DNA from: Plasmopara viticola
Lineage: Eukaryota; Oomycota; Peronosporomycetes; Peronosporales; Peronosporaceae
Reading direction: 5' to 3'
DNA: 64,000 nt
Assembly: GCA_001695595.3 (NCBI GenBank)
Contig: MBPM02000033.1
Span: 723,415 to 787,414 of the forward strand
Shown: piece after piece, positions 43,442 to 64,000 of the stretch
How positions within the stretch are numbered: position 1 is the first letter of the stretch
Layout: every line of letters starts with the position of its first letter
The notes under the pieces: model-generated
What the model saw: only the letters and a program-made list of their open reading frames with translations
What the model was told of the DNA's origin: nothing
The model's database searches: none
Position numbers and translations under genes: made by a program

Positions 43442-45966
43442 TTACATCCGTTCACTCTCGTGCTCCTTCTTGCGCATCCGCTTGACACAATCTTGCAAGA
43501 CGTAATGCACTTTATCCGGAAAGTGGTCGTCCAGCATGGTCCGTCCAATCCGAATCTTGCCAAACTGGCCTTCGGCAGCCCACGCAAAGCGATAGTTGGT
43601 CCGGGCCGTACAGCACATGCCACCGCCGCCGGGACGACAGCAGACCCAGCACCCAGCCGCACCCTTCGTCCGCACCACACGCTTTAAATGCACGACACGT
43701 CCTGGCAACGTCAACTCGTGGATCGGTTCCGATTCTTGAATGCGCTGCAACATGGTGCGGTAATTTGACAAGTGCGCGATAAAAGGCGACGGCGCTCGAC
43801 TGCCGTCGCTCTGGTCGTCAAACGCCGAGGGGGCGTCCGAACGTTGATGGAGCAACTCGTCCGGGGTCCGCCACGCAATGACTTGACGCAAGATCGCCGT
43901 CTTGTTCACTTTGCTCCGTCCAATGAGGTCCAACACCTCGTCGCGCAACGCTTCAGCCGACGTCAAGGACGAGCGTGCAATAATGTCGTCGCCTACGACG
44001 ACCGAGTGCGTAAATTCGGCGGATCGTGACGCCAAGCCCGGGGACATGGTACACCCGGGAGGGCTATAGGCAAAGCACCGGAGGTTTGGGTACTTGGAGC
44101 GCAGCATGACGGCTAATAGACACGCCGTGCCTGCGCCCAGCGAGTGCCCAGTCAGTAGCAGACCATACTCCCGGTACGCGCCCCGTTCGCACACGTTGAC
44201 GCTGTGCGTCGCAATGGCCGTCGCGGCCTTTTCGTCAAAGAGCATGTCCAAGATCCCAAGACGATTGAGCTCGAGATAAATCGACTCGGCACACGAGAGA
44301 AAGCCTTGATGCGCGTACTCGCCCGTCCCATCGCAGTCCCACCGCGCCGCCACGTCGTCCATGGCCATGCCGTACGCAATGGCGTCCGTCAAACAGTCTT
44401 CAAGCGACAGCGTGCCACGAATGGCAAGCACGACCTCGCGCCGTTCGTGGTCCAACATGACGGCAAACGCTGGCCGGTACACCGAGTTCCGAAAGCTCGC
44501 GTACACAATGTCCTCGGTCCGGAGCTGCGTCTCGAGCTGAAGCGCCGTCTGGCCCAAGTGGAACCAATTGTCACCATGCACGTACGATCGAGTCCGGCGC
44601 AGACACGAGAACGCGAGGCTCATGGTGCCCGTCCACGGATGCGACCAGACGTACAACATCCAGCCGTAAATGCCAATGGCGTATTTCGAGAAATGCGCCA
44701 ATTCTTCGAGTTTGGCCGTCAACTCCACGTCGTGCAAGTGGGGATCGGACGGGTGGTAGTAAAACGCGCGTTTCGCGTGTTGAAACCGGGCATCCTCGTC
44801 CTTCAACGACGGAATGTCGATCGAGACTTGGTCCAGCGCATCGCCTTCCTTGGTCGCCGCCACAGAATCGTCGGCTTGAGCTACCGCCAGAGGATCAGAG
44901 CGAGGCGCCCGGTGGCTGCTTTTCGCTCGCATCCTCGCTCGAAACGTCTTCAACACTTGCTCGTCGTCGTCGTCGCCTTCGCGGTGCGGGGACGTGGCAA
45001 TCACTTCGTGATGCTCTTCGTACGCTTGCACGGCAGCGAGCAAGATGAACCCCGCCACAATATCCGACATGACGAGGTCGGGACTGCCGTAAAAGAGACG
45101 GGAAAAGACCTTGGCCACGACCGACATGCTGTCGTGACGCGTGCCTGCGCCCCCAAAGAGATTGCACGTGAAACAACGGAGACAGAGGCAACAGCGCGTG
45201 CACCGTTGTTGCCACATGCGTTGACTGGGGGGGACGTACAGGTCCGACGACGGGACTTCTTGGTCCATTTCTACCACGACAGACCGTTAGACTTGCTGGT
45301 CGTGCCCGGCCTCAAGGCCGCCACGTACCGTCCAATAAAGACTGACGTTCAGAGACAAAAGCGTTACCGTAAGGATCGACGGGGTGCGAGAGGGGGGGTT
45401 GCTCGAGCTGGAGGGCGTCTTGGAGTTCCACGACACTGAGGAGGCACATGCCAAGGGCAAACGTGAACAGCACTTCGAACAACAGGACCCCGCTAATGAC
45501 CTGATTGGCATTCGGTGGCATAAGCCAGTGCAAAGATAGAAGGAGAGAAAGCGCGTACCAATACAAAGCGGGCGTCCGGATGACAGAGGGTGTGGGCGTA
45601 CCAGCAGTAGACGCCGACGAGGCCGTAGGTGAGCAGGACGAGGGACCATAGGACGTGCACTTGCAGGATTCTGGGCATCAGGACGCGGCGCTCGTGATCC
45701 ACGATCGTTCCTTTCGCAGACACTTGCATGATCATGAGGTAGATGCAGCCACGAAAGAAGACGAGCGGGATGGTGACGACGAGGTACCAGAAGGGCAGGC
45801 CAGTCGCATCAAAGGCCGTGCTCGAGCATCGTCGCCATAGACTTGCGTAGAGTATACAGACGAAGGATAGTGGAAGCTGGTAGAGAAAGAGCAAGAGCGC
45901 AGGGCAATACAAGTCGTCGCTGCCCACCACGCGGCTGCGGCGTCCAAAGACTTCAAGCGCTGGCAT
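43442..45966 (-). CDS. diacylglycerol lipase (DAGL-type) integral membrane lipase
   Basis: Predicted sn-1-specific diacylglycerol lipase. Minus-strand exons 45966-45559, 45500-45329 and 45270-43442 (two 58-nt introns; phases 0 and 1), 802 aa. Four membrane helices come first: LYCPALLLFLYQLPLSFVCIL, FWYLVVTIPLVFFRGCIYL, VLWSLVLLTYGLVGVYCW and VISGVLLFEVLFTFALGMCL, as in animal DAGL. A Cys-rich segment (CTRCCLCLRCFTC) follows, perhaps palmitoylated. The class 3 lipase domain has AFAVMLDHERREVVLAIRGTLSLEDCLTD, the nucleophile elbow LLTGHSLGAGTA, FAYSPPGC and SVVVGDDIIARSS with the likely catalytic aspartate. The four-helix N-terminus plus SPPG..VVxGxD distinguish DAGL from soluble lipases. The ORF extending 43442-45277 alone would miss the helices. 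Confidence 0.86.
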
Positions 45967-46154
45967 GCGACTGGAAATAGTAAGAAATGGGACTGGAAAT
46001 AGCTTGGAGTGTCGATAAGAAGATAGTGATTAGCGATTGTAGCCAATGGGATTTCGTTTTGATGGAATTTGGTATTGAGTAATTACCGAGTGTAGATCCG
46101 CGAGGCTGATTTGTCAAAAAGAATGAAATTTGGAAATTGGCCACTTGCTTTCCG

Positions 46155-46350
46155 TCTCTCTGCTACAAGTAACCGATCCTGTGGTGCAGTGGTTTACTAC
46201 TCACTTCAGGACCGGGAGGTCCCGGGTTCGATCCCCGGAACCGGATAGACTCGGGTTAAGTGTAATGAACAACCCTATAGCACTTGCTTGACATGGCTTA
46301 CACGGCCCCTACTTAGGGGTAACGTACTCCATCATCTCTCTGCTACAAGT
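46155..46350 (+). mobile_element. tRNA-derived SINE with perfect 16-bp target-site duplication
   Basis: Element body 46171-46334 (164 bp) is flanked by identical copies of TCTCTCTGCTACAAGT at 46155-46170 and 46335-46350. The body starts with a tRNA-like head: an A box TGGTGCAGTGG at 46182-46192 and a B box GGTTCGATCCC at 46225-46235 with a good T-arm (CCGGG/CCCGG). The acceptor, D and anticodon stems pair badly, so it is not a working tRNA. A unique non-tRNA tail of about 90 bp follows. It inserted about 190 bp upstream of the lipase start. The perfect duplication suggests a recent insertion. tRNA-derived SINEs are known in Phytophthora; I cannot assign a family. Confidence 0.85.
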
Positions 46351-47330
46351 CTGAAGAGGTTTTTACCTTGTGAATCGTCTCTAGACAAAGGTCAGGATGG
46401 GATGAGCATATTTATAAAGTGTTGCCTAGGAAAGATGATGGAGGGAGAAATTGATTATATGCAACGAAGACAGTAGGAACAATTATTCATCGATTAAACT
46501 AGAAACTGAAGTTTAAAAACTATAGTAAGAGGACGCCATTGCTTCTCAAAATTATTGACTTGTTGGCTGGTGAAGCTTGGTCACGCATCCTTAAATCATC
46601 AAGTGTGCTTACGTGAAAAACTGTAACAAGCTCAAGACAGCTGTGGGCCAAATTTTTGTCTCACTACAAAAGCTACAGCAATTTGCGGTCCATTCGGCGA
46701 TAAATGAAGTATACTTCCATCGTAAAGCCTTAAAGGGCAATCAATTAGTGACCAGGCCGGCTGTAACTGCCATTTTTGACACAAGCGCAAGAAAAGTTAA
46801 CGCGCTTTATGTTATAGTGCGAAGAGCTCGTAACGGCATTAGATCGTATAAAGTTGCCGCTTAGGTTGTTCCTAAAGTCAGGAAAAATCACTTCAGTGCT
46901 AATTGGGAGCTTGAAGCGCGCACATTGTCGCCAAGTTGGCATAATAATAGGCCACTGAACTTTCGCGAAGTGTCGGCAAGTACCGCCGCTCGCAGTGAAG
47001 TCTCAGTGGCCCACCTGTTAATCATTGTTCGTATAGCGGCCAAAGTTATCACGGGAACAGAACTGCAGCTTTGGAGCAGCAACATATATTACGCAAATTC
47101 GTTCGTCACGTTAAAAATACACAAACCGTGAAAAAGACTTTATTTGTTGATCGTTTTATGGATAGTGCAGAAAGAGCTACGCAAGCACCGAAGCGGCAAA
47201 GCTACTGCACGTCAGGCCAAATTTGCACATGGTCTGATGAATCGTGTTGCATTTTTTTTCACACTCTCTCCAGGACGAGTATTGGCGACAAGACGACAAG
47301 TACTGCAGCAATTTGCTAAAATAGCAAAGC

Positions 47331-47416
47331 GTTCAAAAGATTATCTGGTTGTTAGTACGGAATTCGGACTAGCTTTTACCGAATTTTCGTGCTTACAACC
47401 AGATAACCTTTTGAAC
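47331..47416. repeat. 86-bp near-perfect hairpin
   Basis: Left arm starts GTTCAAAAGATTATCTGGTT and the right arm is its reverse complement ending AACCAGATAACCTTTTGAAC. The arms (about 37 nt each) differ by about three substitutions and one indel, with a loop of about 10 nt. No flanking target duplication is evident. It could be a small MITE, a replication-born palindrome or an RNA hairpin. Confidence 0.8.
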
Positions 47417-47471
47417 ACTCAGACAGCTCATCTTTCGCTCATTGTAAATCAAAGTGGTGGATGTTTGTTGA

Positions 47472-47619
47472 GTAGAAGGCAAATTGTAAAGGTTGATGAG
47501 CAAAAGCACGATGCAGAGTAATTGCATATGGAAGGCGTTGAGAGCCATACCCCGGACGTAGAGATGAAAGAAGGTGATTCAGACCAAGGAATTAACACAC
47601 TTCACAATTTGCCTTCTAC
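47472..47619. repeat. inverted repeat with 16-bp perfect arms
   Basis: GTAGAAGGCAAATTGT at 47472-47487 is exactly reversed as ACAATTTGCCTTCTAC at 47604-47619, 116 bp apart. It lies just after the 86-bp hairpin. Origin unknown. Confidence 0.75.
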
Positions 47620-49634
47620 ATAACGATGTTACTACGCTGGTGTGGTAGCAGCGACGAAAAGACTTTCAGAGCAAGCTTCAGAAGTCTGATCGCCATTGTT
47701 TTCTCCGGTAAAAAATATACCAAAAGGGTCTATAGAAACTAGTCTTAATGTCACAAGCGCACGCCGTACATTTCAATGCGGCGTCATACGTAATTCTGAA
47801 GAGTTACATAAATGCATTTATCAAGCGAGCGTATACTTTTATCTGCTTCGCCATTGAAAGAGCGCTCGGCTCTTCATCATGACAATATTTTTTTCGTCTT
47901 GACATCATGAAACTTGCTGTCGGAGGGACAGAACGAGATCGACAAGGGCTGAGTAGCCATTCCATCGATAAAAGACGTATCCACGCATGGATTGAGCTGA
48001 TTCCTACTTATATCTTGGGGGGGGGGACGAGATCGACTTAGACGAGACCGTAGAATTAACACGGAAAATTTGTTTGGTATTTCCTTGGCAGCTGATCCAG
48101 GCACATTTTGCGCAGCCGCTTTCTCTTGGCGAATACAAGTTTACGGTGATGTTACTTAAGAATAATGTGCAGCTTCCCAGTCAATAAAATTAGCTTGCTG
48201 TCATTAGGCGAAAAATAGTTAACTTACCGCAGCGGAAAACTTGGGGCTAGTACCAAAATAGCTGGCGCTTATCTTGCCCAAAGTATACTGCGTTACCTTG
48301 AGAGGTAAGGACAACGCATGGATGGTGCACCACGATTCAAGAACCAACCAAATTGAACGGAATCCGCTGCTGAATGCGGATGACAGAACAAATCTATAGA
48401 GTAGCGAAAGCCGTATTTTGAAAGCAGTGCAGTTTTGATATGAGAACTAAACGCATGTGAATTAAGTAAGCTAAAATTAGATCCAACAACATCAGCAGGA
48501 ACTTAAATCGTATCCCTGTAAGCTAAAAGTCTTGAAGAAGATGAGTCTATTCAGCCTCTTCAAAGCTAGGGCTAACCAACATTTGCATGCTCATCAAGCA
48601 CCTCAGCGAAATGCTAACGCTGAATAACATGTACATAAGGAGTTTACATGCGATGCAGCTCGGCCGAACAAACCCGTTATGTTGCCAGCCTAAGCCCTTT
48701 TAGCTGCAAAGCGTCAGATTTAAAAAAGCGAGGTCAGACTTGCTGGTCTCTAGCACTGTTTCCTCTTAATGCTGAGGAGTAATTTTTAAGCGGCGAGATG
48801 TTGAACGTGACATCACCATGATTACGATTACTCGCAAATAATGAATTTCTTTGCAGGTGACGGTCTGCAGTAAAATAGACAAGCTCAGATCTGGGAAACT
48901 TGTATTCGCGCAAAGCAAAAAGAGTCTCTTTTATAGGTCGCGAAGGGCGATACGTACCTAAATGGACGGCCCGATAATATTGCAGTCCTCAACTTAGAAC
49001 TACACAAGTTGTGCACTCCTTGGCAGGGTTCGAGGTCCATTAACTAAAACGCTACAAGCAGTAGGTATCAGACAACAACATGGGAGTAAGAGGGAGCCAA
49101 GCGCGCTAGGACTCCGAATTCCTAAAACAAAAGTAACAACGACGTGTCGCTGAAGACACATGCTTGGCAAGCCACAAATGCAACGGCAGCAGAGGCGACA
49201 AGGCGAATGCAACGCAGACGACTGCGAAATGTTGCGACCCCAGCGAGAGGCTTCGAGCGAACGACAGTGAACAAACACGGCTTGTGGCCATTTTCTGAGC
49301 AGGTGCGAAGTAATGTAGTGTATTCATTCCGGTATTGGAGCATTCCGGAATTCTTCGAAAATACCTAATTACGAGCCGGTTTAAATACCGGTAGGGTGCC
49401 TCGGAACCACCATTCTTTTTTACGGATGGCCAACTTTTACTGGCTGATGTCCATTCGCCAAGAAAATGAGTGGCACCTTTTAAGCACATACAGTAAACTA
49501 ATTGCACAGACGAATAATAAAGCTTTTAGATTCTGGTACATTCTAGCAAGTCACTGGACATTATTAATAAGATCAGAACTGTTCAGATTTGTTGTAAATA
49601 AATGCGGTCATAATGATGAGGGATGGACAGCCGC

Positions 49635-50844
49635 TTAGAAGCTGCTAATATCTGTGCGGCTCGAGTCGAAATCATAGGCCTCTAGCTTCACAACCAGCAC
49701 CGTAATGTTATCGCACGTATGACGTTGAAGTGCTAGTCCGACGAGTGCGTTTGCGACTGCTTGGGGGTCTGTGTAGCCAACCGCCACACTTGCGGCCCGT
49801 TTGCTGGATACGACATCCCATAGCCCATCTGTTGCCAAGATGAGGAAACGGTCGGTTTTCGAAAGCTTGCGAGTCTGAATCTCTGGGTCGCACGAAATGT
49901 ATGGCTTGAGCGTCACGTCACCAATCGACCGTGACATGGCCAATTGCCCATTCACCCGCGGGACGTCAATGATTTTCTTGAGGGGCCACATTTTGTACAT
50001 AAAGTCGGGCTTGCCTGTGATAAACGCTCCTTTGGCTTCCAGCCGTTTGCGCTCGTCTTTCCGGTTTGGTTTCTGGTCGTCCGACATGGCAATCGCGTCG
50101 CCCCAACGAGTGACGACGACAGCGCGGGAGTCACCGACGTTCCGACGTGGAGAAAGCCGTCCCGTACGAGGGCAATGAGCAGCGTCGAGCCATCGTCCGT
50201 GGCGAACGACCGACGGTTGCTGTACCGTGCAGCGGTGCTGAGTGCAGAGTTGGTGGCGTCACGTGCATTGGTACAAAAGTCAGCATCTACAAGAAAGTTT
50301 GTGTTAGGCCTCGAAAGGATTGACGTGCCACCTTTTCGTGTAGAGCTGGACGTACCGAGTGCTCGCACAGCTTTGGTAATAGCGTCGTTCACAGTCATTT
50401 TCTGAGCGAAATGCTCGAGCACTTTGGAAAAGATGTGCTCGGCGCAATACCGAGACGCACGGTCCCCTGCATGGCCATCAAAGATGCCAAAGCAGCCGCT
50501 GGCAGAGCTAGAGTAGCCGTTTAACGTAAGTCTCTTTGTTGCTTTTCCTCCAATAAAGTAGACGTCCTATCAGGTGACAAGGTCAAGTGGAATGTTTCAA
50601 TGATGATGATGGCGACTTGACGTACCTCTTGATTATGTTTTCCACCACGGTCGGACGAGATGCCAACGGGCACGTCGTATAGATCGTCGGCCTTGAGGTC
50701 CTTGTAGATCGAGTCAAAGTCGTGCGACGTTGCGTAGGTAAATGGCTGGTGTTTGTATGAAGGTTGGAAATCAGTCATCATGGTGTGGATGCGATGTGAG
50801 CACGAGCGCGCTAATTTGGTTATGGCGTCTGACTTGCAAGCCAT
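49635..50844 (-). pseudogene. PP2C-type Ser/Thr phosphatase with a one-base frameshift
   Basis: Mn/Mg-dependent PPM-family phosphatase. Minus-strand exons 50844 (or 50781)-50626, 50533-50356 and 50286-49635; introns of 92 and 69 nt. Motifs in order: SSDRGGKHNQE, FGIFDGHAGDRAS (metal-binding DG), DDGSTLLIALVRDGFLHVG, VGDSRAVVVTRWGDA, RVNGQLAMSRSIGD, ATDGLWDVVSS and TCDNITVLVV with the last metal aspartate. Between HVG and VGDSRA (about 50139-50143) the frame shifts by one base, which cuts an otherwise complete protein of about 350 codons. Either this is a young pseudogene or a sequencing/assembly indel. Start choice: ATG 50781 (MMTDFQPSY) avoids overlap with the upstream gene's stop at 50820; ATG 50844 is the first in frame. 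Confidence 0.8.
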
Positions 50845-52312
50845 CCAAGAGAGATTTGTGGCAGACGGTGCCCAAAGAAAGCTACCCGTAATCTAATTGG
50901 GTTTTTAATCAGCCTACACGTAATATATATACTTCGATTTTAAGCAAGCACACGTACCTAAAGTCGCAAGCGTGCCATAAATCACAAGCGATGCATTAGG
51001 AAGACTTTGGTGACCCAGTATTGGCTGCACAAGCTCTCGCATAGCGCCAGCAATGAGCGCTTCAAATCGCTGGCTTGCCAATCGAGCACATCTTGACCAG
51101 AAAGGCTCTGCCACAAACGGCACGTCAGCGGGGGGTTTCTTAGGCACCACCAGGTTGAGCCACAGTCACTAGATGCTTTGGTGGACATGCAAGATTTGTA
51201 AACGAGATTGATAAGCAAGTAGGTGTAGCACATCACCGTGTACTCAACCAGAGAGTGCAGTCCTCCTAGTTTTCCTTTGATTCTGCGCTTCAAGTTCAAG
51301 AACGGACAGATGGACTGTACCATGTGTAGCAAACAGGAGTCTAGTATTTGATCACATTGCACATGGCATGTATACTTCTCTAGGAGCAAGAATCCGAAGC
51401 TACTATGGCTGCCGTGTGGCATACTCTCGAGTGGGCTACCGCTACAGATGTGCCCTCAGTGGGTACAGATACGGGCAGTCGTACATGAAATCACACTTTT
51501 GCCTGTGTCACGACAGGTCTGCCGCGACGTGAATATACAGCAGCAAGGAGATGTACTTCATCCTGAATCCCAAGCAATATTACTCTTAGCTAGGGATTGT
51601 GATGAAGTACACGCGTCATTGTTCCATTTACGGTAGAGCGAGTAAATCACTCGATAAAAATCGCACGCGAACATGTACAGTCGCTCTGTTAGCCCTAATA
51701 TCTTTGCCATCGCAGGATTTTCTCGAGTTGGTGAGCGTAAAAGCATAACACGATACAAGAAAGGATTTTGATGCGTCATACAATATGTTACTGTGCTAAG
51801 AGGCTGCCCGTGTGACACGACGTTCTCTGTATCGTACGATCATTAGCATGCATTGAGCATTGTCGATTGGTAGTATTTTCTCAGGAGCCATCGCGAATGA
51901 AGGGATACTCAAGTGACGACAAAACTATCACCAGCACACGATCGAACCAAATACTTAGCTTTGAGTCTTTGTTACATACTTCAAATCGCTACAATATTGA
52001 ATACGATTCGATGATCGTAGATCTAATACACGTCCACCTTGCGCGGGTATCAGGCGAACTTCCAGGCTCGAAAATTCGCAGAGACTTCGCATTGTTGCTT
52101 CAAATCTTCTTGCACCCAATTTTTCTTCTGAGTCCACACCTTGCATCACAAAGACTATCTGAGTAACCAGAAGAACGAGTGGATGGCCGACTCCATGTGA
52201 CAGGCCGTCAGAAAGCCGAGTGATCGCGGTAAACTGGCTTGCTGTCAGAAGGCCTTTCAAAGGAATGGTGGACGACAGGCACGGGGTATTTCTCTAAATT
52301 GCAGAATTAGAT
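50820..52312 (-). CDS. unidentified multi-exon membrane-protein-like gene, partial model
   Basis: Several minus-strand frames look coding and can be linked by plausible introns, but I cannot name a family or find the start. Best-supported are the last exons: about 51138-50958 (KPPADVPFVAEPFWSRCARLASQRFEAL...SLVIYGTLATL), a 76-nt GTACGT/TAG intron, and 50881-50820 (AFFGHRLPQISLGWLASQTP, stop). Upstream are a frame with GGLHSLVEYTVMCYTYLLINL (about 51420-51204), one with AKILGLTERLYMFACDFYRVIYSLY (about 51780-51640), and one with TASQFTAITRLSDGLSHGVGHPLVLLVTQIVF (about 52310-52080). The hydrophobic runs suggest membrane helices. The MULE-like element begins 38 bp beyond the most upstream frame, so any 5' exon lies across it. 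It may be broken. Confidence 0.35.
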
Positions 52313-52341
52313 AGAGGTTAAAATAAATCATATTAATATTG

Positions 52342-53447
52342 ATATTAAAGGGAAATGATACAGAGCAGGCACTTTTCGCAAACGGGCAGGCACTGGTGTT
52401 TATATGAATCTAATTGATTGGCATTTCTTCTCTGTGATTGGCTGGAGGGCTAATTCGCAGTCGTGATAACTTCTTTTGGCTCCGCTTTAACGTCCGTAAT
52501 TCGCCAGATGCTTGAAATAGTGTTTTTTGTGCTTCGGCTGCTTTCTTTTAGAAATAACGAATTTCCTTTTCAAGCGATCTTCGCTCATTATCGCTCTCCA
52601 AACGCAGCTCTTCGTACCGGATAGACCAAGACTTTTCCAAAGATTGATTAGCATCGTTGGCATGAACAGAGGAACGTTGCAACACTTCCAACTTGCCTTG
52701 ACTAGAGCGTAGTTGTGACGCCAAGTGCTCAAGCTTGGAATTCACCGATAAATCGTGTTGTTTCCAGCATGCTTGCACTTCTTGAGTCCTTGTTTTAAAC
52801 TCTTTTTTAAGCGCTGAAATAGTCTTACGCACAAGACTAATCACCGACTGGTGTCTAGTTTTCTTCAAGACCTGACGGCCACAACTTGAATGAGAACATA
52901 GCTCCACCTTGACACTATCAAGCTCTCGCTGGGCTGCCTCTTTGTCATCGTTGAGCGCAGACGCCGCTTGCAATGCTTCGCTTGCCCGTCGACATTCGTC
53001 ATCAACTTGTCGCAATAGCGAACTCTTTTCCAAAGCAAATTGTTGTTGCCAGTGCGTCTGTCGCTGTCGAGCTGCCGGACTTGTTAGGGACTTGGCAGAC
53101 AATGCGTTTGCCAGCTGCTTCTCTACTTCCTGCACCTGAGTTGCCCGTCGCGCCAACTCTATATGTTGATGTAATTGAGCTTGCCAAGAGTTTGCAGGGT
53201 GTTCATGGTGATGTTACTGCGGAAGAATACGTCAAAGTTGCGTGGTAAGTCGCGGTTTTAACGTCGAAAAGTAGTTTTGGGATAAGTTGCATCTGAGATT
53301 GGTGTAGCATATGAGATTATTATCACGACTGAGAATTAACTCTCCAGCCAATCACAGAGAAGAATCGCCAATCAATTTAATTCATATAAACATCAGTGCC
53401 TGCCCGTTAGCGAAAAGTGCCTGCCCGGTATCATTTCCCATATTAAA
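52342..53447. mobile_element. MULE-like DNA transposon with 120-bp terminal inverted repeats and 8-bp target duplication
   Basis: Element 52350-53439 (1090 bp). The ends are inverted repeats of 120 bp (52350-52469 and 53320-53439), both starting GGGAAATGATAC and differing at about 11 positions (about 91% identity). Direct repeats ATATTAAA flank it at 52342-52349 and 53440-53447. Each TIR contains GGGCAGGCAC-like decamers spaced 21 bp apart near its outer end, possible transposase sites. Long TIRs, a terminal GGG and an 8-bp duplication fit Mutator-like elements best; hAT elements also make 8-bp duplications but have short TIRs. The 850-bp interior has no transposase, so it is non-autonomous, and carries a coiled-coil ORF (see next). 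Confidence 0.88.
52548..53156 (-). CDS. coiled-coil ORF inside the MULE-like element, possible captured gene fragment
   Basis: A 202-codon open frame lies wholly between the TIRs. Its product is a regular coiled coil: VQEVEKQLANAL, then FALEKSSLLRQVDDECRRASEAL, DKEAAQRELDSVKVEL, SALKKEFKTRTQEVQACWKQH and SLEKSWSIRYEELRLESDNERRSLEKEI. It contains no transposase feature. Upstream on the minus strand, AACATATAG before the frame looks like a splice acceptor, and a short ATG frame (from about 53204) could be a first exon. This is what a Pack-MULE-type capture of part of a host gene would look like. The parent gene is not in this window. Whether it is transcribed is unknown. Confidence 0.55.
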   Translation of the reverse strand: MARRATQVQEVEKQLANALSAKSLTSPAARQRQTHWQQQFALEKSSLLRQVDDECRRASEALQAASALNDDKEAAQRELDSVKVELCSHSSCGRQVLKKTRHQSVISLVRKTISALKKEFKTRTQEVQACWKQHDLSVNSKLEHLASQLRSSQGKLEVLQRSSVHANDANQSLEKSWSIRYEELRLESDNERRSLEKEIRYF

Positions 53448-55221
53448 TTACTTCATCTATAGACTACACAAGATCGAGGATAGTAAACAGTAAAAATTGC
53501 AACTCCTTGTGCAAGCCTCCACTGTGCAAAGGGTTGTATAAATTAATAGCTCTTGCTAGTACTATGCTGGAAAACTATCTATTTTTAATCCTCGCAAATA
53601 TCCAGAGTGGATAGAATCATCTGATTGCATCCGTCGTACGTGCAGTTGTTGCTGCATGAAAGTCTTGTTAGCCTCTACAAACTTGATGAGGCGGCTGCAT
53701 TGCAGCCCTCCCACCTGTCAAATAGCTGATAAGTGTCACAGTGATCGAGTTCTGTAATCCTGGGGTCAGAAAACTTCAGCCCGGGCGGTATCCATTACTG
53801 TGGGTCCTATGAAGGTAAATGCGAAGGTCTCCATCCTTAGACTGCGAAATATGGAGGTAGTTACAGTGGTTATCTGACCACTAAAGTGTCCATGATTCCA
53901 GATGGCCAGGTGCGTGTGACGCAAGCACTCTCGGCCTTAAACGTCAGGCTAAAAGTGATTTTTTTTACGTAAAATCACTTACTGAAGTTGTTTGTGTCTT
54001 TAAAACACATAAAGGACACGTCGAGTTTGACATTTTATCTAGAGAACTCAGACTTTCGCCAAAACGCGCACTTTCTTGAGGTAGGTGAGTATATTAAGGA
54101 AGCGGCTTCCATTGCTTGTACGCCACTCTCCAAACCACCCAAGCTGATTGTATCAGAAAACTACTACTCAAAGAAGGTCGCGATTTGGAATCCGAACCAG
54201 CGGAAACTCGTGCCGCACGATGGGGTCTGATACAATGATCATGCTTGCGCTCGTGCGCTCATAATATAAACTTCCGGCGCTTGTTTGGCGTAATGTCAAT
54301 GCCGAGACACATTGATGATACATCTTTTTCGGTGCTTCTTTGTCAATATAGTAAACAATGCAAGTTTAATCGATCGGCTCACCAATACTACATTTCCGCA
54401 AACTTCCCGCCAACTGTGCCTACAAGATCAATTGTACTATTTGTTTAGCGAATCGTGTGCGGATTGTCTGCTATCGGGCTCATCCCAATGATTGGAACAG
54501 CGTCTGTCAAATGTAGTGGAGATTTGTGGGTCCTTGTCCTGTCCGGAAGGACATGGCAATTCATACAGTAGCCTTGCTGTTTTTCCGCTTAATTGGCTAG
54601 GATGTATGTCAAATGCAGCTTTGCTCATGTTGCTATTGGTATTTAGCAAGCAAGAGGCGATGTCGAGGCTTACGACTTCGAAACAGTCCGCCAGTGTTGG
54701 CGGACTTTGTAAAAGAGCCGTGGTATTTTTACGTATTTTACCTATTACAGGACCTTTACGTGGTTTTTCCCCCACGAGTATACTACGAAAGCAAATAAAA
54801 CGCTTTCTTCAGGCCTTAGTAGCCGCCAATTTAAGCATTTCATCGCTCGAGATGTAGACCATACCTTTATTTTATTGTCGGTTGGAGCAAAGACTAAGCC
54901 GAATCTACTTTATCCACTTTAGGATGGAACACACCGTCTGGCAAATAATGGCATTGCACTAGCGTTGAATGTATTATATATGAGAATTGCTTTCGGTGAA
55001 AGGATAATTTGTTTTTTATGTCCCACCAACCGGTGATGGGGAAGCAAGTTGCTCGGCCGAAAATCAGCTTCAAGCCAATACCAATCGGAATGAGATGACG
55101 TCTCTACGTTTGATGAAAATTTGCAATTGAGGCCCTGGACTGGCATTTTATAAATAAGTAACATATCTGTTGTACAATAAGGCGCTCAATTCTACTAGTG
55201 TGTGCCAGCTAATTATCTTAC
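53448..55221. other. gap, probably eroded retrotransposon DNA
   Basis: No gene is supported. A minus-strand frame at 55164-54919 may be the integrase end of the gypsy remnant to the right (LVGHKKQIILSPK). Frames at 54.4-54.9 kb overlap on both strands. AT-rich overall. Confidence 0.4.
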
Positions 55222-56250
55222 CTATGATAAAGCACGTCGACGAGCACAATGAGCTTGCCGGGCTCGAAAAAACCATATTTCATGAAGAATGATAGTCATC
55301 TTGCTATTTATGAGGCGGACGTAGGGCGCATTAATTGTCGTCTTTAGGATTGCATGGCTCGGAACAATCCACAGATGGCTTATCACGCTAGTGATACACT
55401 CGAATTTTACATGTACATACTCTATGGCAAGTATCCCCAAGTCATAAGCAAAGTATTGTCATTTGGCAGCTCTAACTTTCCAGGAGGGAACGAGACGACG
55501 TCTCAGTGACGGTCCTCATCGAGTTACAGTAATGCGCACGTGATGGTACAGGCAAATGCTCGCCAAACAACATTGTTTGATCCGCAAAATTAAGACAAAT
55601 GACCACTTAAAGCTCTCTTTATAACTAGCAAAAGCCTTCTGGTGCTAGCTCCTTTAGTACAGTCCGATGTATAATACATCGAGAGAAAGCTTTACAAAAA
55701 CCCGCACAATACTTAAAAAGGAATTAGTTAGGCCTGATAATCAGCTAATATCATTTTGTATTCATACTTTAGACCAAGCCAGAATGAATCAACTATCTCG
55801 GATTTTTTTGCCCAAACCCTACAACTACTAAAAAGAAGCCGAGTGCTTCAATTTTATTTGCCGCAAAGGCATATTTGCCGATATAAAACATTTTTTTTGT
55901 TTGCCTTCATGATATAACAAATTTATTAGGTGCCTTCGGAGTCGACTGAACTCTTTTGGAATGGCGTTGTACGTGTCAAAGTATGCCGGGACGAAAGACC
56001 CGAATGATTTAAGCAATTATGTGACCAGATGACCAAACGATGCCAGAGTCAAGCGTCTAGTAATTTTGTGGCATCACAAGCTATACTGCTAAGCCTTCTG
56101 ACGTCATGAAGAGTATTTATGATCCTTTTGATCGTATAAAAGTGACCTTGTTTCAGGTCCATTACACCATATAGCGTACGTGCATCGCCAATATGCAACA
56201 CGTTCTTCGTTAGGATCGGAGTTAAACTGCTAAGCATTTGCATGAGCTAT
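55222..56250 (-). mobile_element. third degenerate Ty3/gypsy pol remnant (RT to RNase H)
   Basis: Read on the minus strand from 56250: YGVMDLKQGHFYTI matches the YSTIDLTDGFYQI-type RT block; LLKSFGSFVPAYFDTYNAI (about 56015) matches LLRPVRDFAPSYFDDVFVH, with the FDD catalytic pair changed to FDT; then a KCIFAAxEI-like segment in a shifted frame near 55880. At 55440-55222 LGILAIEYVHVKFECI followed by SHAILKTTINAP matches the RNase H stretch KELLAMKYALVKF...DHASLRTATQSP. Catalytic residues and frame are lost. Orientation is opposite to the other two remnants. Confidence 0.68.
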
Positions 56251-58447
56251 TTTACCACCTCCCGTTAGGTTTGAGGATACAGAGAGTTGGTGACAAATGT
56301 GGAAACTTCAACTATCGCACCTCAATGCCTAATTCTTCTCTCTGATAGGGTTTTTGATGGTCGGTCTCTGTAGAAAACATTTAAATGACTCTTACATAAA
56401 TGGAACATCAGATCCTTGGAACCCTGCAGAAACTGTGAGACTAAGCACAACTACGTTGTCTGAAATGCTGATCCTAATTAACTTTGTCCAAAAAAAAATT
56501 ATGTATATGATCCTATGAGGAGCTTAGAACATCACCTCTTAGCTATCTAGAAATGATCTAAAATTATTCCTGTGCAAAAGTAAAGTGCTTCGATATTTTT
56601 TTAAAAGTTTAGGATACCCCCCCCCCTGAAATGTTTTCGGCTTCTGTCTCAGCCAAGAACTTAATTGTTTTGGGCTTTTCAACATTCAATACATTTGGCA
56701 TCTCTGGTCATGAAGCGCACCTGCGGTAACGCGCCAACTAGATGAAGAGCATGTAATGTAATGTATTACGGTATCGCGTTGCCAAGTTATGCACGTGCTA
56801 GGCTCAGTCTGGCTAGTCCACGGCATAGAGTGGTGTCCGCATACGTCGGGTCTCGTTCGGCGGGCAGTGCAGCCAGCACAGAGGTCGTGAGGGTCTTCCT
56901 TTTTTTTGTTTATCTCTGACTTGGTAAGAGCCCAGGTGGCCCTGGTGCTGGAGACCGTCGCGTCGAGGGTGAGACTCGTTAGAGACCTGCAGATGCCCGA
57001 GAGCACCTGCCCGAAGCGCGCGAGCATTTATCCCCCGCGCTTGGAAGGAGGGCGTCACCATGAAGAGCATATTATCCTAAACTAAGGCCTTTTTATTAAT
57101 TAGGGAGTACCTTTGTATCACATATCTAATCTTGGTTTTGTAAGCTGTATTAATTGCACTTAATTTCCATTTGTGTTAATGTGCTAGCTCCACCTCCACC
57201 ATTTTGTGAAAGTATGCCACAGTTGTGACTTGCAGAGCATTGTTACCCGAAGCTGGTGGCGCTATGTTGACCCTGTGAAAACAATGCTACCTAGGGAATC
57301 TTTGGTGTATTCGGCAGACAATGCTGCCAGCATATAACAAGAATTGTTTTTCGCAAGACGTCGTCACGTGCACGCACAATTGGGTTGGAGAGAGGTCTCA
57401 AAGTCAGTTGCGCTTGAGCAGGTCTGGACTAGTCTTATTGATCAATTCAGGGCTCGTAATTTAAACACGGCATACTCAGCATAAAATCATACTTGTCTAT
57501 GTCAAAAAAATGAAAGAGCGTCGTGCTTTTGAAGTCCACACAATTAGCAGCGAGGGGTACTTAGACCATGAAGTTGTCAAGAGTCATCACATTAGCCGGT
57601 CAAGCTAAGCTCTATTTGGTTTGGCTGCTTTCCTTAGAGCATCAGCTGACCAGAGCTATCTGACCGCAAGCATTTGCTGGTGCAAAGATCATTTTGGACT
57701 CATAAGACTCGAAATGATTTTATTTGCTTTTGTCCCCTTGCTTTTCCATGAACAGTCTACTGCCAGTGGGTGTTATATCGAGATCTAGGGGCATAAACAT
57801 TTTCCAAGGTGTATATCAAGCGCAGTTTGTGCCATCAGCACCAAAAGTAGCAAAGGTGTTGGTGCAAGAACTGCAATAATACTTTTTTAGGCCTGTATGT
57901 ACTTAAAGAGGCACGGATATAAGCCCGGAAGTCAAGTGTTCCACGCCTAGCTCAAAATTATGCCAAAGTCGAGATATCTAATAGGTGAGATGTATCTGAT
58001 CTGGAAAAGTGGTAAGTGTATGTTCCTACGTCTTAAGGGCCAGTATACAATTATAATACCAAAATAAGCCTAAGTAGTACTATAAGCTTTTTGACGGTGG
58101 GTACATCGTGTGTCTCAGGTCTCACACCTTACAGAATCACTCATACTAATATTTTTTGAATAAATTGTGTTACGTTCGGGTCTAGGGAGTGCGTACCATC
58201 TTATCTTTTGACTTCTTACAACACCGTGTGAGAAATTGTGACACGAGAAGGTTTGCACTTGAATGAATACTTCAAGGTCGTGCCGACTTGTTTGAGCCGA
58301 GTTTCTTCGTACACGCCACGCGAGGAGTGACTTCAAAAAAGCCCTCGCAGAGATAAACGTGCGAATCGGCTCCATGGCCTGTATCGATAATACCGACCTG
58401 AATGGTCCTCCTTGACCTTGTCGAGCCCGTTGTTTGATGGGTCATTG
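56251..58447. other. gap without a supported gene
   Basis: Overlapping minus-strand frames at 56.69-57.07 kb are of higher GC than the surroundings but show no motif. A C10 run occurs near 56621. Minus-strand frames at 58.1-58.6 kb run into the tandem repeat array and have no family signature I trust. Confidence 0.4.
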
Positions 58448-59100
58448 GAAGTCTCACAAGATGTCATCTTGCGTCGGTGATCGGTGGTGGACGAATCACA
58501 AAGTCCATCGCCAACTCCGTTTGCGTTCCTAGCAAATGTGTTAGCCCCAGAATGACTCGTCTCTAACAACTCTCTCTTCCTTTTGGTCCTCAATTTTGGT
58601 GACCCCCTAAATGAGTATCAGAAGTCTCACAAGACGACAACTTGCGTCGGTATCGGTGATGGACGAGTCACAAAGTCCATCGTCGACTCCGTTGGCGCCC
58701 GTGAATGACTCGTCTCTAACGACTCTATTTTCCTTTCGGTCCTCAATTTTGGTGACCCTTTAAATGAGTAATCAGAAGTCTCACAAGATGACCTCTTGCG
58801 TCGGTTATCGGTGATGGACGAGTTACATACTCTATCGTCAACTCCGATTGCGTTCCTAGCAAATGTAAGCCCTAGAATGAGTTGTCCCTAACGACTCTCT
58901 CTTCCCTATGGTCCTCAATTTTGGTGACCTTCTAAATGAGTGATCAGAAGTCTCACAAGACGACAACTTACGTCGGTAATCGGTGGTGGACGAGTCACAA
59001 AGTCCATCGCCAGTTCTGTAAGCGTTCCTAGCACACGTATTAGTCCGAGAATGACACGTCTTTTCCGACTCTACCTCCCTCCTGGTCCTTTACATCTCGA
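58448..59100. repeat. four-copy tandem repeat of about 155-173 bp
   Basis: Units start with GAAGTCTCACAAGA at 58448, 58621, 58775 and 58947 (spacings 173, 154 and 172). Each then has TTGCGTCGGT, GGACGAGTCACAAAGTCCATC, GAATGACTCGTCTCTAACGACTCT and TCCTCAATTTTGGTGACC in the same order, with substitutions; copy 2 has lost about 18 bp in the GTTCCTAGCAAATG part, and copy 4 degrades towards 59100. Copies differ by roughly 10-15% by eye. It may be a minisatellite or an old internal repeat of a gene; no continuous protein frame runs through all copies. Confidence 0.85.
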
Positions 59101-59974
59101 ATCGGTTTGGGACTTTGCGTACGGGAATCATAAACTGATCCGTCTTTACGGATGAGGCCTCCCGCATGCTCAGACGACAAGTCTACCACCGGACCTCAGA
59201 TCTTTTAAGTAGTATCATTGTCACTAATTTGCCGCTTTAGCGGGCAAAGGTCAAGCCGAAATTTTGTTTAAGCACTCGCAGCGCTCCTCATTGCTTTAAT
59301 CACCCGAAGGCGGAGATGTCTGCGATCTATCAGGCTTATAAGGCTCTTCCAGAGTATTCTTCACCTTAGAGGCTCTTTGGCGGGCGAATCGTTTCAGGCT
59401 CACCACCCTCGTCGAGACGTGGCCTTTTTTGTAGGCACAAACATAGGGACGGAGACCTGATCCGGTAAAAAAAACACTTAATTTTCAAAGCAATCTTTTC
59501 AGGGGTTGGCTCGATCTTTACTAGATGACCTAGCAATTGGTAGGCTTGTTTGGTCATTGCTACGAGTTTTCTATCAAGTCAAAAAGTTACAAATAACACT
59601 CATAGGATTGTACTCCAAGTTTTGTAAGAAGCATGAAGCTTTTCTGGTGAGAGCTGCATCTCATCCCTTTAGACAACCAAGTCACGCCTATAACCATTAT
59701 TTGACTTTGCGATACGGAAAGCATTTCTTTAAGATCAAGGTTGAGGCAAGGCACGGGAATGGCAGCGCGTTGTGTGCTGTAGAGGCCTAGAGTTGCTTGC
59801 GATACCATGCTGGTGCCAATATATCGTGCAATATTCTCGCTAGATCTCCTGCCACCCAATTGTCGATCTATTATAATGCAAAGCAGAATCATAGCAGATG
59901 CTTAATCAGTGGAAATAACCATATATTTTTTTCGGATGGTATCGAAATTTGGGCTGTCAGCTATCGGTGCATTC
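59101..59974. other. gap without a supported gene
   Basis: Contains short frames on both strands with no recognisable motif. The right end is the 3' flank of the APMAP-like gene. Confidence 0.45.
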
Positions 59975-61225
59975 TTACTGAACTAGAGCTGCTGGGAACC
60001 GCATAATAAAAGGACGAGCCCAGCTCATCAAATATATGTGATCACCAAAACGACAAGGTCCCGACACAAGTGGCACCTGACCCTGCGATGCTTCGTACAC
60101 GTGCTGAATATCGCCAGTCTCCAAGTTGATAGATGCAAACAGTCCAAGGCGGTGCACAAACATAATGGTCACCCACGTCGGAAGCAGCGACAGCAGCTTG
60201 CGCATTTTCACGCTTTGCTTGATATGATGAAAGAGACCTCCATCATTAAGCGACGCCAACCCGACCATCAACACCTCGTGCTCGTTCTCACCTGCACCCA
60301 CTTTTTCAATCGAGATATTATCCGGCTCGCCAGGAACGAATGCAAAGTCTTTTATTTGCTTGGACTTTAAATCAAATCGGACGATCTTGTTTTGAAACAT
60401 GAGGGCAATTAGTAGACCAGATCCATGTTTGTCAAACGTCAAGCCATTTGGAAAGGCCAACTCCCGTGCCAAGATTTTGGCCTTCCCCGTTTTCGGATCG
60501 AAACGTAACAAATAGCCCGAGGGTACGCGCTCCAAGAAGTCCAGCACTACCTGATTACGCTGAAAGCGATGCGACGAGTCTGTCACGTAAATCTCCCCGG
60601 TCGTTTGAGCCACTGCAATGCCATTCAAGAAATTGATTCGTTCCTCGCCAACCCGACTAAAAAGTAATGTACGGTTGCCCTTTGCATCAAAGAGTAGCAC
60701 GCCCTTGTATGCATCTGCCACGAGGAGCACCTGGTCCCCTGCAAACGTCTTTGCACCAGGAATTCGCTTGATAAACTTGGCAAATGGCTTGGCAGCTGCA
60801 AACACGAGTCCAAGTGGACGTCCGCATGTTGGTTCCATGTCCAGGGTCCCACACTCGGGTACATCGCGTCCAGTGCGAGAAAAATTGCGAAGGTCATCCA
60901 CCGTCTCGCGGAAAGCCGCAAGACGACCGTCGGCGAGTCCTACGTACGCAACTCCGTCTTGACTCACTGCCAAGTCTTCAGCACTAAGCGCCTGATTAAG
61001 GAAGAGAACTTCGGCGTGGGGAGCCTCGAACAGCGCCGGGTTGCGAATGACCGGCTTGGTTAGTTCGTAACGCGCCTCTTGCTCGCTCGTGCGCAATTCA
61101 TAAGCGTAGTCCAAAGGCTGAGGATCTGCTTCTCCTGAATATTGATCTAGGACCGAAGACAAAAGCATCACGAAGAAACATGCTGCGAGCAGCTCGCGAG
61201 ACAGAAAGTTGCGCAAGGAGACCAT
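59975..61225 (-). CDS. strictosidine-synthase-like / APMAP six-bladed propeller protein
   Basis: Intronless, 416 aa. A signal anchor (LLAACFFVMLLSSVL) near the N-terminus places the rest in the ER lumen or outside. The remainder fits the SSL/APMAP beta-propeller: EDLAVSQDGVAYVGLADGRLAAF, CGRPLGLVF, VLLVADAYKGVLLFDAKG, FLNGIAVAQTTGEIYVTDSSHRF, LLRFDPKTGKAKILARELAFPNGLTFD, FVPGEPDNISIE and SGPCRFGDHIYLMSW. The LAFPNGLTF and GEPDNI blocks are diagnostic of the family. Plant strictosidine synthase needs a catalytic glutamate I cannot place here, so alkaloid synthesis is not implied; arylesterase-like hydrolase activity is the usual guess for this group. It lies 227 bp downstream of the kinase gene, same strand. 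Confidence 0.85.
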   Translation of the reverse strand: MVSLRNFLSRELLAACFFVMLLSSVLDQYSGEADPQPLDYAYELRTSEQEARYELTKPVIRNPALFEAPHAEVLFLNQALSAEDLAVSQDGVAYVGLADGRLAAFRETVDDLRNFSRTGRDVPECGTLDMEPTCGRPLGLVFAAAKPFAKFIKRIPGAKTFAGDQVLLVADAYKGVLLFDAKGNRTLLFSRVGEERINFLNGIAVAQTTGEIYVTDSSHRFQRNQVVLDFLERVPSGYLLRFDPKTGKAKILARELAFPNGLTFDKHGSGLLIALMFQNKIVRFDLKSKQIKDFAFVPGEPDNISIEKVGAGENEHEVLMVGLASLNDGGLFHHIKQSVKMRKLLSLLPTWVTIMFVHRLGLFASINLETGDIQHVYEASQGQVPLVSGPCRFGDHIYLMSWARPFIMRFPAALVQ

Positions 61226-61452
61226 TGTATGAATGGACTAGATGACGACACGAAAGATACTGTTTGATATGTGCATTACCGTTTTATAGTACTAATATGT
61301 AAACGGTATTACTAAGCATGGTAGCAATATTAGCCGCTTATCCATATAATGATCGACTCGTAGGCATGCCAAAGCCCAATTTGTCCCAAATAGTACCATA
61401 TAAATTGCCTTCTAAAATGCCGAAAGTCATATCGTATCAAAAGGCAATCCTC

Positions 61453-63657
61453 TCAGCGATCACGGTCTCGGCGGTCGCGACTTCGACTTCGACTGCGGTC
61501 CCGATCTCGATCGTAGTAGTCACTATTAGGTCGATGTGGACGGTAAGATCTGCTGCGATCTGATTGGGTATGGTGACTCTCTCCACGATAATACACGTCG
61601 CGCTCGCGGTATCCGCTACGTTCGCCTCGTTGGCGCATATAGCGATGGTGTTCGCTGTTCTTCGTGTTGCCCTCTTTCGCTGCGGCAGCTGCTGCCATTT
61701 CTTCATGATGCCGCTTCTTTGATTGGTATTCGTGCGTAGACGACACGCAAAACTTAGGGAGGCTGACATGACAATAATATTGTAAGCTGCACAAGAGAAA
61801 GACGATAGTGCAAACAGCTCGTCACGTACTCTCTCGGTTTGCAAGTTTGTACACGCCAAAAGTAATCGTGGTCCATGGCCTCTGCAGCTGTAATGCGCTT
61901 TGCAGGATCAAGTTGCAGCAACTTTTCTAGTAAATCTATGGCATGTGGTGGGAAGCTAGAATATTAAAGATCAGCAGTTAGCGAAGACTACACAAATTCA
62001 TGATCAGTAAAAAGTCATACTTTTTGAACCGCTCACGCAGTGGATAGACATATTTATCGTCCACTTGGATACTTTCAGCCCCCGGTAGTTTATAAAATTC
62101 AGACCATGTTTCCTCCGTCGGCATACCGCATAATCCAAAGATTATTTGAAGCTGCATGTCAAGCATATAAAATTTTCAGCATTTATGAATTTGACGCATT
62201 CAAGTTAGCACCAAACCTGCTCGATTTCAGTTTTCCCCTGCAAAATGGGTTTTCCCAATAAAAGCTCACCAAAAATGCACCCAATGGACCATAAATCCAC
62301 CGAGAAATCATACGATGTTGAGCCCATAAGCAGCTCAGGTGGACGATACCAGAGCGTCACGACCTTGTTTGTGTACCTTCCCGCCTTCGCGTTCACTTCA
62401 TTCCAAAATCTTGAAAGACCGAAGTCACCGACTTTGAGCATGCCTTGATTGTTTAGCAGCAGATTCGAAGCTTTGATGTCGCGATGGATGATCTTGTTGC
62501 GGTGCATAAACGCAATTCCCGTCAGTAGTTGGCGCATATAGCACTGTATTTGAGTGCGCGTAAACTTGACGCGCGGGTGGTTCAACAGCCCGGAAAGATC
62601 ATGTTCCATGTACTCAAATGCAAAATATAACGGTGGTCTTTTGCCTTCCTTTGGCGAAGCTGCAGTGACGCAACACCGCACACAATTTGAACGAAAAGTG
62701 AGTTGCAATGTATTATCACTAGCAGAAAAGCAATTTACATTTACCACTTGATGACACGATTTCCTTCAACTCTAAAATATTTGAATGCCTAAGGTACTTA
62801 AGAATTTTCATCTCGCGAATGGAAGTTACAGGAAACTAGCACAAAAAATTACAGTCCACACTTAAACATACCAGTATCATAATTTTCAACGTACTCCATT
62901 TTTTCGACGTCCGGTCGAAGTTTCTTGAGCGCTACAATATCCTTCGTCACCTTATGCTGACACTTGAAGACCTCCCTATTCGTATACAAGCGCAGCATCA
63001 AGTTATCATGCCGGAGCGTAGGACACACTCATACTCAACGTACCCGTACGTCCCAGATCCGACCTTATCAATGATACTGTAATTGTCAATATCACCAACA
63101 TAAAATCGAGGCTTCTTGGTTTGCACCTCTTGCGCTATTTCCGTCATGATCTCGCGTTCTCGCACTGCGCTTCTCATTGATGCAATAACTGAGATCGACG
63201 AAGCCTCGGAGGCTACTGTAGCGTCTGCAGCGCTGCCACTTTCCTCTCGTTCGTCGTCTCCATCTTCTCCATCACTCGCCTCCCTTTCTCTCGGCTTTTC
63301 CACCTCTTTTGTGGCTTGTACTGCACTCTCAAGAGCTGTAGACAAGTCCACAGCAATCTTGGCACTAGGTGGACTAAATGGGGGTGGTGGAGGGGGCGGT
63401 GGCGTGTTAATTGGGCTCGTTACAGGTGGCGAAGGCGGAGGCGGAGGTGTGGGGAAACTCTGGGACTCTGTCGGCTCGTCCGCGCTTTCTAAACTGCGCG
63501 TCTCATCGTCATTCTCCTCTAATGGGCGGTACTTAGGTGGCGTACAAGATGGGGAAGCGAATCGGGCGGATCCTCGGACAAGGAGGCAATGGAGACGAAA
63601 AGCTGGAGCTCTGACCGCTCTTGGTTTTGCAAGACGGCGCAAGGTCGGGAGGTGCAT
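61453..63657 (-). CDS. cyclin-dependent kinase of the CDK9/CDK12 type with RS-rich tail
   Basis: Predicted transcription-linked CDK phosphorylating the RNA polymerase II tail. Minus-strand exons 63657-63044, 62975-62891, 62835-62745, 62659-62217, 62151-62021, 61955-61830 and 61786-61453; about 607 aa. N-terminal ~180 residues are proline-rich (PPPPPPPPFSPP) and acidic. Kinase: VGSGTYGEVFK, ALKKLR, the cyclin-binding helix FPVTSIREMKIL, YFAFEYMEHDL, IIHRDIKASNLLLNN, VGDFGLSRF, YTNKVVTLWYRPPELL, WSIGCIFGELL. After the kinase, LPKFCVSSTHEYQSKKRHHEE and a C-terminal DRDRSRSRSRDR tail, as in CDK12/13. The second intron uses a weak GTTGAA donor but gives correct spacing, and the sixth is only 43 nt. 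The start is uncertain: a proline-rich frame from ATG 63823 overlaps in another register. Confidence 0.84.
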
Positions 63658-64000
63658 TTGCTGTTCTGTTGCTTGCTGCAGCGACTTTGATCGAGCAACT
63701 TGTCACCGATGCAGATACTAATGACGAAACAGAGTGCGATGTTGGCAGAGGTGGCGGTGAAGAGACCGCAGGAGGTGTGGGAGACGGAGGTGGCGTTGCA
63801 TTTGCCATGTTAGGTTTGAGCAACTTAATAGGAGCAGGGCTCGGCGCAACATTAAATGACGCTTAAGTTAATGTTGAAGTTTGCTGCAATAAGATAACGG
63901 CTATGCTGTGAATGAAGTAAGGAATGGATCAAAAAATCGTTTTTTTGCCCGTTCGTTTCTTCCTACTGCCACCGTCAACATATATTGTGCTGTGGCATTT
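63658..64000. other. upstream region of the CDK gene
   Basis: A minus-strand frame starting at 63823 (MLKPNMANATPPPSPTPP) has the same proline/serine-rich character as the CDK N-terminus but is out of frame with it by one base, with no splice pair that would join them. It may be a 5' leader, an upstream ORF, or the true N-terminus separated by an indel. Beyond 63823 the DNA is AT-rich; no core element is clear. Confidence 0.4.

Follow-up and report, generated by a model that had tools for sequence, protein, structure and literature searches.

The 64,000-nt stretch of Plasmopara viticola DNA analysed here (the window; contig C33:723415-787414) holds a short transposon-like element with long inverted ends, and the question it raises is whether, in an oomycete, a MULE has taken up part of a host gene. 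Such capture is textbook material for MULEs of plants, whose Pack-MULEs were reportedly treated by Jiang et al. in 2004. A Pack-MULE is defined by terminal inverted repeats of the MULE family, a target duplication of about 8-11 bp, an interior free of transposase, a host-gene fragment whose parent lies at another place in the genome, and movement as a unit. Judged from sequence comparison, the window element is a Pack-MULE by every one of these features that we tested, residing in an oomycete and having a named parent gene family. We are highly confident, though not certain, that it represents a non-autonomous MULE of the Pack-MULE type, which arose by a single capture from a Cnn_1N gene, reached about 30 copies, probably through mobilisation in trans, and has drifted neutrally. 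A preliminary description of the locus had arrived at the Pack-MULE reading, and what follows agrees with it in the MULE ends, the interior in which no transposase was found, and the captured piece of a host gene.

The element is 1090 bp long (52350-53439), and its features are collected in Table 1. Its 120-nt arms are 91% complementary at a spacing of 850 nt, and the 8-bp target duplication is identical on both sides; the preliminary description had given both features correctly. As in that description, no transposase was found inside: the longest frame showed no Pfam family above the cut-off, and the remaining sequence is cargo and arms, of which the right arm touches only the first bases of the coding region of a transposase-bearing partner (see below). 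The right arm is also present in sibling MITEs without the captured piece.

Table 1 Features of the element and its neighbour, in window coordinates.
Feature	Position	Strand	Basis
Neighbouring PP2C phosphatase gene, outside the element	49641..50778	-	placed by homologues
Left target-site duplication, ATATTAAA	52342..52349	.	exact 8-bp match to right copy
Left terminal inverted repeat, 120 bp	52350..52469	+	inverted-repeat comparison
Cargo captured from a host gene, 693 bp (element 119-811)	52468..53160	- (coding sense)	sequence comparison
Open-frame relic, 221 codons between stops (202 when read from TTG)	52548..53213	-	ORF list, copy comparison
Filler, about 18 bp, between captured fragment and right arm	53161..53178	.	
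Right arm (element 830-1090)	53179..53439	-	comparison with partner and siblings
Right terminal inverted repeat, 120 bp	53320..53439	-	inverted-repeat comparison
Right target-site duplication, ATATTAAA	53440..53447	.	8-bp length supported across 41 elements

The genome (92,937,831 bases in 358 contigs) was searched for these ends, as the preliminary description had suggested, using a 30-base end pattern with at most 3 mismatches and the reversed pattern as a control. The pattern was found at 99 + 94 = 193 sites, versus 0 + 0 for the control. Target duplications were then assessed in 41 elements with both ends delimited, 25 of them cargo-bearing (loci with one end were left out), against flanks paired from different elements. 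In the 8-bp register the flanks agreed at a mean of 6.8 of 8 positions versus 3.9 in the control; the other registers lay near the control (3.4/7, 4.2/9 and 4.5/10 versus 2.9, 3.6 and 4.1). The duplication was exact in 15 of the 41 elements (control 0.18%) and matched at 7 or more of the 8 positions in 30 (control 3.3%), while fewer than 6 flank positions matched in 4. When four elements whose end had been shifted by one base by hand were removed, the counts were 13/37 and 27/37, respectively. The targets are AT-rich, with T as the first base in 35/41 and A as the last in 29/41; the duplication of the window element begins with A. The length of 8 bp lies within the range given above for Pack-MULEs. 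In plants the target duplication of MULEs is typically 9 bp, and hAT and Merlin elements likewise make 8-bp duplications.

The ends can be assigned to a superfamily through elements that share them and carry a transposase. A genome profile search with PF10551 (MULE transposase) returned 151 matches, 150 of which entered a proximity test. A listed end site lay within 4 kb of nine of these, facing inward in every case, against about 1.3 expected (100 of the 193 end sites were listed); the other 141 had none of the 100 listed end sites nearby, as would be expected if most of them are members of different MULE families. The strongest PF10551 match is enclosed by a 2566-bp element (C2:1163334-1165899), which shows both end patterns without a mismatch, an 8-bp duplication with one mismatch, and an inverted repeat of its own of 46 bp. 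Its 540-codon frame matches PF10551 (E 3.4e-25) and the ZSWIM1-3 RNaseH-like family, and a CCHC motif was seen by eye near the C-terminus of the encoded transposase. The 540-codon frame is directly preceded, in register, by one of 114 codons, with a single stop codon between the two. The resulting 655-codon frame thus has one stop, after codon 114, and the next methionine codon falls within the MULE domain, so this copy is probably itself broken, and we rejected the label 'autonomous' for it because of the internal stop. A second partner (C18:627169-630118) is collinear with the first save for about 360 extra bases, has a duplication matching at 7/8 positions, and carries a stop inside its MULE match. 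Among 7991 candidates scored, 13 relatives of the transposase protein were listed, and PF10551 was present in 13/13. The partners found for these ends are MULEs by sequence homology, and the ends of the window element are ends that surround PF10551 transposase genes. The preliminary description had called for siblings and an autonomous MULE to be sought; siblings and transposase-bearing partners were found, but no intact autonomous copy was seen among the two partners described.

Comparison with the rest of the genome shows that the interior of the window element was captured from a host coiled-coil gene of the Cnn_1N type. The 693-bp fragment is 93.9-94.7% identical, without gaps, to five Cnn_1N gene copies of the full-length type (L072-L076), and the long open frames that the cargo matches are three on C4 and two on C20. 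L074 and L075 are open over about 896 codons or more, and the other three long copies have frame breaks. In L075 the Cnn_1N domain (centrosomin N-terminal motif) is found at the N-end of the frame (E 1.6e-11, above the cut-off), and the captured stretch corresponds approximately to residues 503-733, i.e. to the middle of the gene. The protein search for the parent gene yielded 39 relatives (7993 candidates scored), every named one from an oomycete: Phytophthora, Plasmopara, Bremia, Peronospora, Hyaloperonospora, Peronosclerospora, Pythium and Globisporangium. The most similar among the long alignments, from Plasmopara halstedii, is 74% identical over 96% of the query. The captured stretch could be aligned to 9/9 relatives tested (of the 39), its identity being 65% in Plasmopara halstedii, 57% in Phytophthora infestans and 28% in Pythium oligandrum. 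The preliminary description had suspected a captured host gene and asked for the parent of its product; both points are answered by this oomycete-conserved family, whose long copies in this genome are 94-95% identical to the cargo over the 693 bp.

The Cnn_1N gene family comprises at least 12 copies in this genome, five of the long and seven of the short type. The copies are located on C4 (9.7k, 31.8k and 53.3k), C20 (911k and 939.7k), C88 (three) and C102 (four), in arrays with a spacing of about 14-29 kb that lie toward contig ends. The short form, which makes up the C88 and C102 arrays, is without an internal stretch, as known from one of its seven copies (L082). None of the five full-length-type genes is the exact donor, since they differ by 3.6-4.6% from the majority sequence of the element copies. 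No similarity to the TIR was detected in six gene copies (L072-L076 and L082) within the 2.4-3.6 kb examined per copy.

The number of element loci with cargo is 31 by manual count, including one on C42 that was not read further. Alignment and an unrooted tree were made for 30 element copies and the six gene copies just mentioned. Both breakpoints are kept within 4 bp in 27/30 element copies; L040, L045b and L048 are cut or deleted at one breakpoint. In the tree, a split with a support of 0.989 sets all 30 element copies apart from the gene copies, and the branches within the element clade are short, star-like and mostly weakly supported. Taken together, the shared insert, the shared breakpoints and the split in the tree point to a single capture followed by a burst, and the 30 aligned copies, along with the 25 cargo-bearing elements of the duplication test, indicate that arms and cargo moved as a unit. 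The mean distance of the copies to their majority sequence is 3.5%, the window copy being the closest (1.73%).

A seemingly identical sibling, C89:7795-8884, was rejected, since its flanks and duplication are those of the window element itself; it is the same locus or an allele and was dropped from all copy counts. At the places checked, the end of C33 agrees with the start of C89: a stretch of 3850 bp is identical and two others, of 442 bp and 1101 bp, match at 100%, with a slight difference in repeat length near window position 50.9 kb. If collinear throughout, the end of C33 (window about 44600-64000) and the start of C89 would overlap by approximately 19 kb, and the assembly would then hold this locus twice, as an overlap or as an allele. 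An empty allele of the site was not found, the left flank occurring elsewhere only as one 61-bp partial match.

The copies could also be viewed as a source of sense or antisense RNA that dampens the centrosomin-like genes, an effect comparable to one proposed for plant Pack-MULEs. The dispersal of about 30 copies, with long stretches approximately 94% identical to at least 12 gene copies, would suit such a role, and we infer that the inverted arms could form a hairpin; however, nothing in the sequence demands such an effect, and we consider it improbable. A more elaborate version, to which we assign a still lower probability, would have the roughly 30 drifting copies with inverted arms feed RNA silencing of the parent gene, the 12 or more gene copies being a dosage response or an escape.

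The frame inside the window element was examined with respect to a second alternative, namely that the cargo is a functional captured gene and that a coiled-coil protein is made by the window copy or another one. The 202-codon ORF (52548-53156, minus strand) drew attention in the preliminary description; the frame exists, with TTG as its only start, but it does not stand as a meaningful coding unit. The 221-residue frame from stop to stop contains no methionine codon at all, the parental frame is interrupted by a stop in 28/30 element copies, and the very stop that ends the frame of the window copy recurs in 17/30. The private changes of the element copies are distributed over codon positions 1/2/3 as 95/88/95 (chi-square p 0.84), and the differences between the element-majority and gene-majority sequences as 6/6/9. 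A functional gene would find its best candidates in the window copy, with its 221 open codons and its closeness to the majority sequence, and in a copy on C26 (L033/L063), in which the parental frame is stop-free and open over 308 codons; L048, the other copy with a stop-free parental frame, has internal deletions. Given the missing methionine codons, the stops and the lack of codon-position bias, the ORF is, by the comparison of copies, not a gene but what remains of the frame read in the host gene, and a functional captured gene is very unlikely. Changes among the gene copies number 54/60/82 at the three codon positions, a mild excess at position 3, and hence the Cnn_1N gene arrays may also be under weak constraint.

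The origin of the arms became apparent from comparison with the C2 partner. Over its bases 1-119 the left arm shares 87% identity with bases 1-119 at the left end of that element, and the outer 244 bp of the right arm (847-1090) are 93% identical, in inverted orientation, to positions 1-246 of the same left end. The window element has its 120-bp inverted repeat because it carries two copies of one partner end. Arms derived from the left end were present on both sides in 16/16 cargo-free siblings examined, a sample biased toward such arms, as most were found by the 120-bp arm query of the window element and a subset was read. In a plain MITE the interior would be the element's own non-coding sequence and the ORF would have arisen by chance, as the siblings without the gene piece and the broken frames of most copies might suggest. 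This is refuted by the match of the cargo, over 693 bp, to the middle of a conserved Cnn_1N host gene, and such an explanation is scarcely credible. The reverse course of events, in which the gene arrays on C4, C20, C88 and C102 are transposon products and the element their source, could accommodate the array position near contig ends and the broken frames of three of the five long copies but is contradicted by the full-length orthologues in other Peronosporales and Pythium, by the purely internal gene piece in the element and by the gene copies without TIR similarity in the stretches examined, and its probability is negligible.

Several siblings deserve a separate description. In the fold-back siblings L005, L007, L009, L011, L024, L025 and L085 each of the two arms, at most about 470 bp long, matches the partner's left end, and the cargo-free siblings L016 and L084 are interrupted by other insertions. 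A class of about 604-614 bp (L003, L004, L015, L022, L023, L027 and L083) has the same ends and a different interior of 310 bp, which has 29 matches in the genome and is possibly another capture. L086 (C40) was considered as an outside source of this interior and rejected: it is without complete ends yet still carries arm sequence. Likewise, the 1716-bp element on C101 (L083) is not a second gene-capturer, since it consists of the 604-bp class plus a repeat-like insert of about 1.1 kb, parts of which recur beside other loci; no Pfam family was matched by the two L083 frames tested.

For the Pack-MULE-type origin of the window element, the following course may be proposed. The progenitor would have been a MITE-like fold-back element, both of whose arms stem from one end, the left, of a MULE that carries a transposase. 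In a one-time acquisition of the 693-bp internal piece of a Cnn_1N gene, its left inner arm would have been replaced from base 119 by gene sequence, leaving a filler of about 18 bp where the cargo meets the right arm. The capture may have occurred by copying, for example by repair of a gap or by a template switch on a fold-back intermediate, with which the likeness of both arms to one transposon end is in keeping. At the right breakpoint, 7 bases of the gene (AACTCTT) recur in the inner arm of one of the fold-back siblings, and at the left there is an AA match; both were read by eye and are too short to serve as proof. The shared ends suggest that the chimera subsequently moved in trans, with MULE transposase supplied by same-ended elements. 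It would in this way have spread to about 30 sites, its insertions duplicating 8 bp of AT-rich target sequence, and its cargo has drifted without coding constraint since the capture.

Plant Pack-MULEs are described in PMC6446971. Like them, the window element is non-autonomous, with long inverted ends, a short target duplication and no transposase found, and carries in several copies a host-gene fragment with an identifiable parent family. It differs from them in its oomycete host, in its duplication of exactly 8 bp, in the resemblance of both arms to one end of the transposase-bearing element, and in the amplification of a single cargo piece to about 30 copies. The same paper presents MULE-Phytophthora_2 (group 39) with one ORF, SWIM and CCHC domains, and TIRs of 67 and 81 bp. 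The partner resembles it in domain make-up (PF10551, the ZSWIM1-3 RNaseH-like match and the CCHC motif), whereas the inverted repeat of the partner is just 46 bp. According to PMC3538342, histone H3-like genes have been transduplicated in hAT elements of Pyrenophora tritici-repentis; there, too, part of a host gene is multiplied by a DNA transposon in a filamentous organism that attacks plants, although in that case a fungus and hAT are concerned, and here an oomycete and a MULE. Finally, PMC12477816 calls certain families of giant, non-autonomous elements in the brown alga Ectocarpus analogous to Pack-MULEs. These are likewise stramenopile DNA elements with only non-transposase genes; they are giant and their accessory genes mostly of unknown function, whereas the piece here is short and comes from a named host gene family.

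No report of an oomycete Pack-MULE, or of an oomycete host gene captured by a MULE, was found in the open-licence literature searched (titles and abstract openings), which within that scope supports the earlier impression that such capture in oomycetes is little described. Pack-MULEs as such are already known; the branch of life is new, as far as literature searches reach. A clear oomycete case shows MULE gene capture outside plants. With the parent gene family, the transposase-bearing partner, the single capture and the neutral decay all readable in one genome, the system is a simple one for working out the mechanism of capture. Annotators should be warned that such fragments mimic coiled-coil genes.

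With regard to the neighbourhood, the preliminary description had raised the possibility that the insertion disrupted a possible host gene whose most upstream frame lies 38 bp away. On the left side, this found no support once the PP2C gene had been placed by its homologues: its start codon lies near 50778, 1564 bp from the left duplication of the element, which is situated upstream of that start, and its first exon matches a homologue at 49%. Two frames of 99 and 101 aa between PP2C and the element matched no Pfam family. The insertion may nevertheless touch regulatory sequence. Elsewhere in the window, the repeats at positions 58370-59039 are tandem-like but imperfect, their units being 46-171 bp long and spaced at 153-327 bp.
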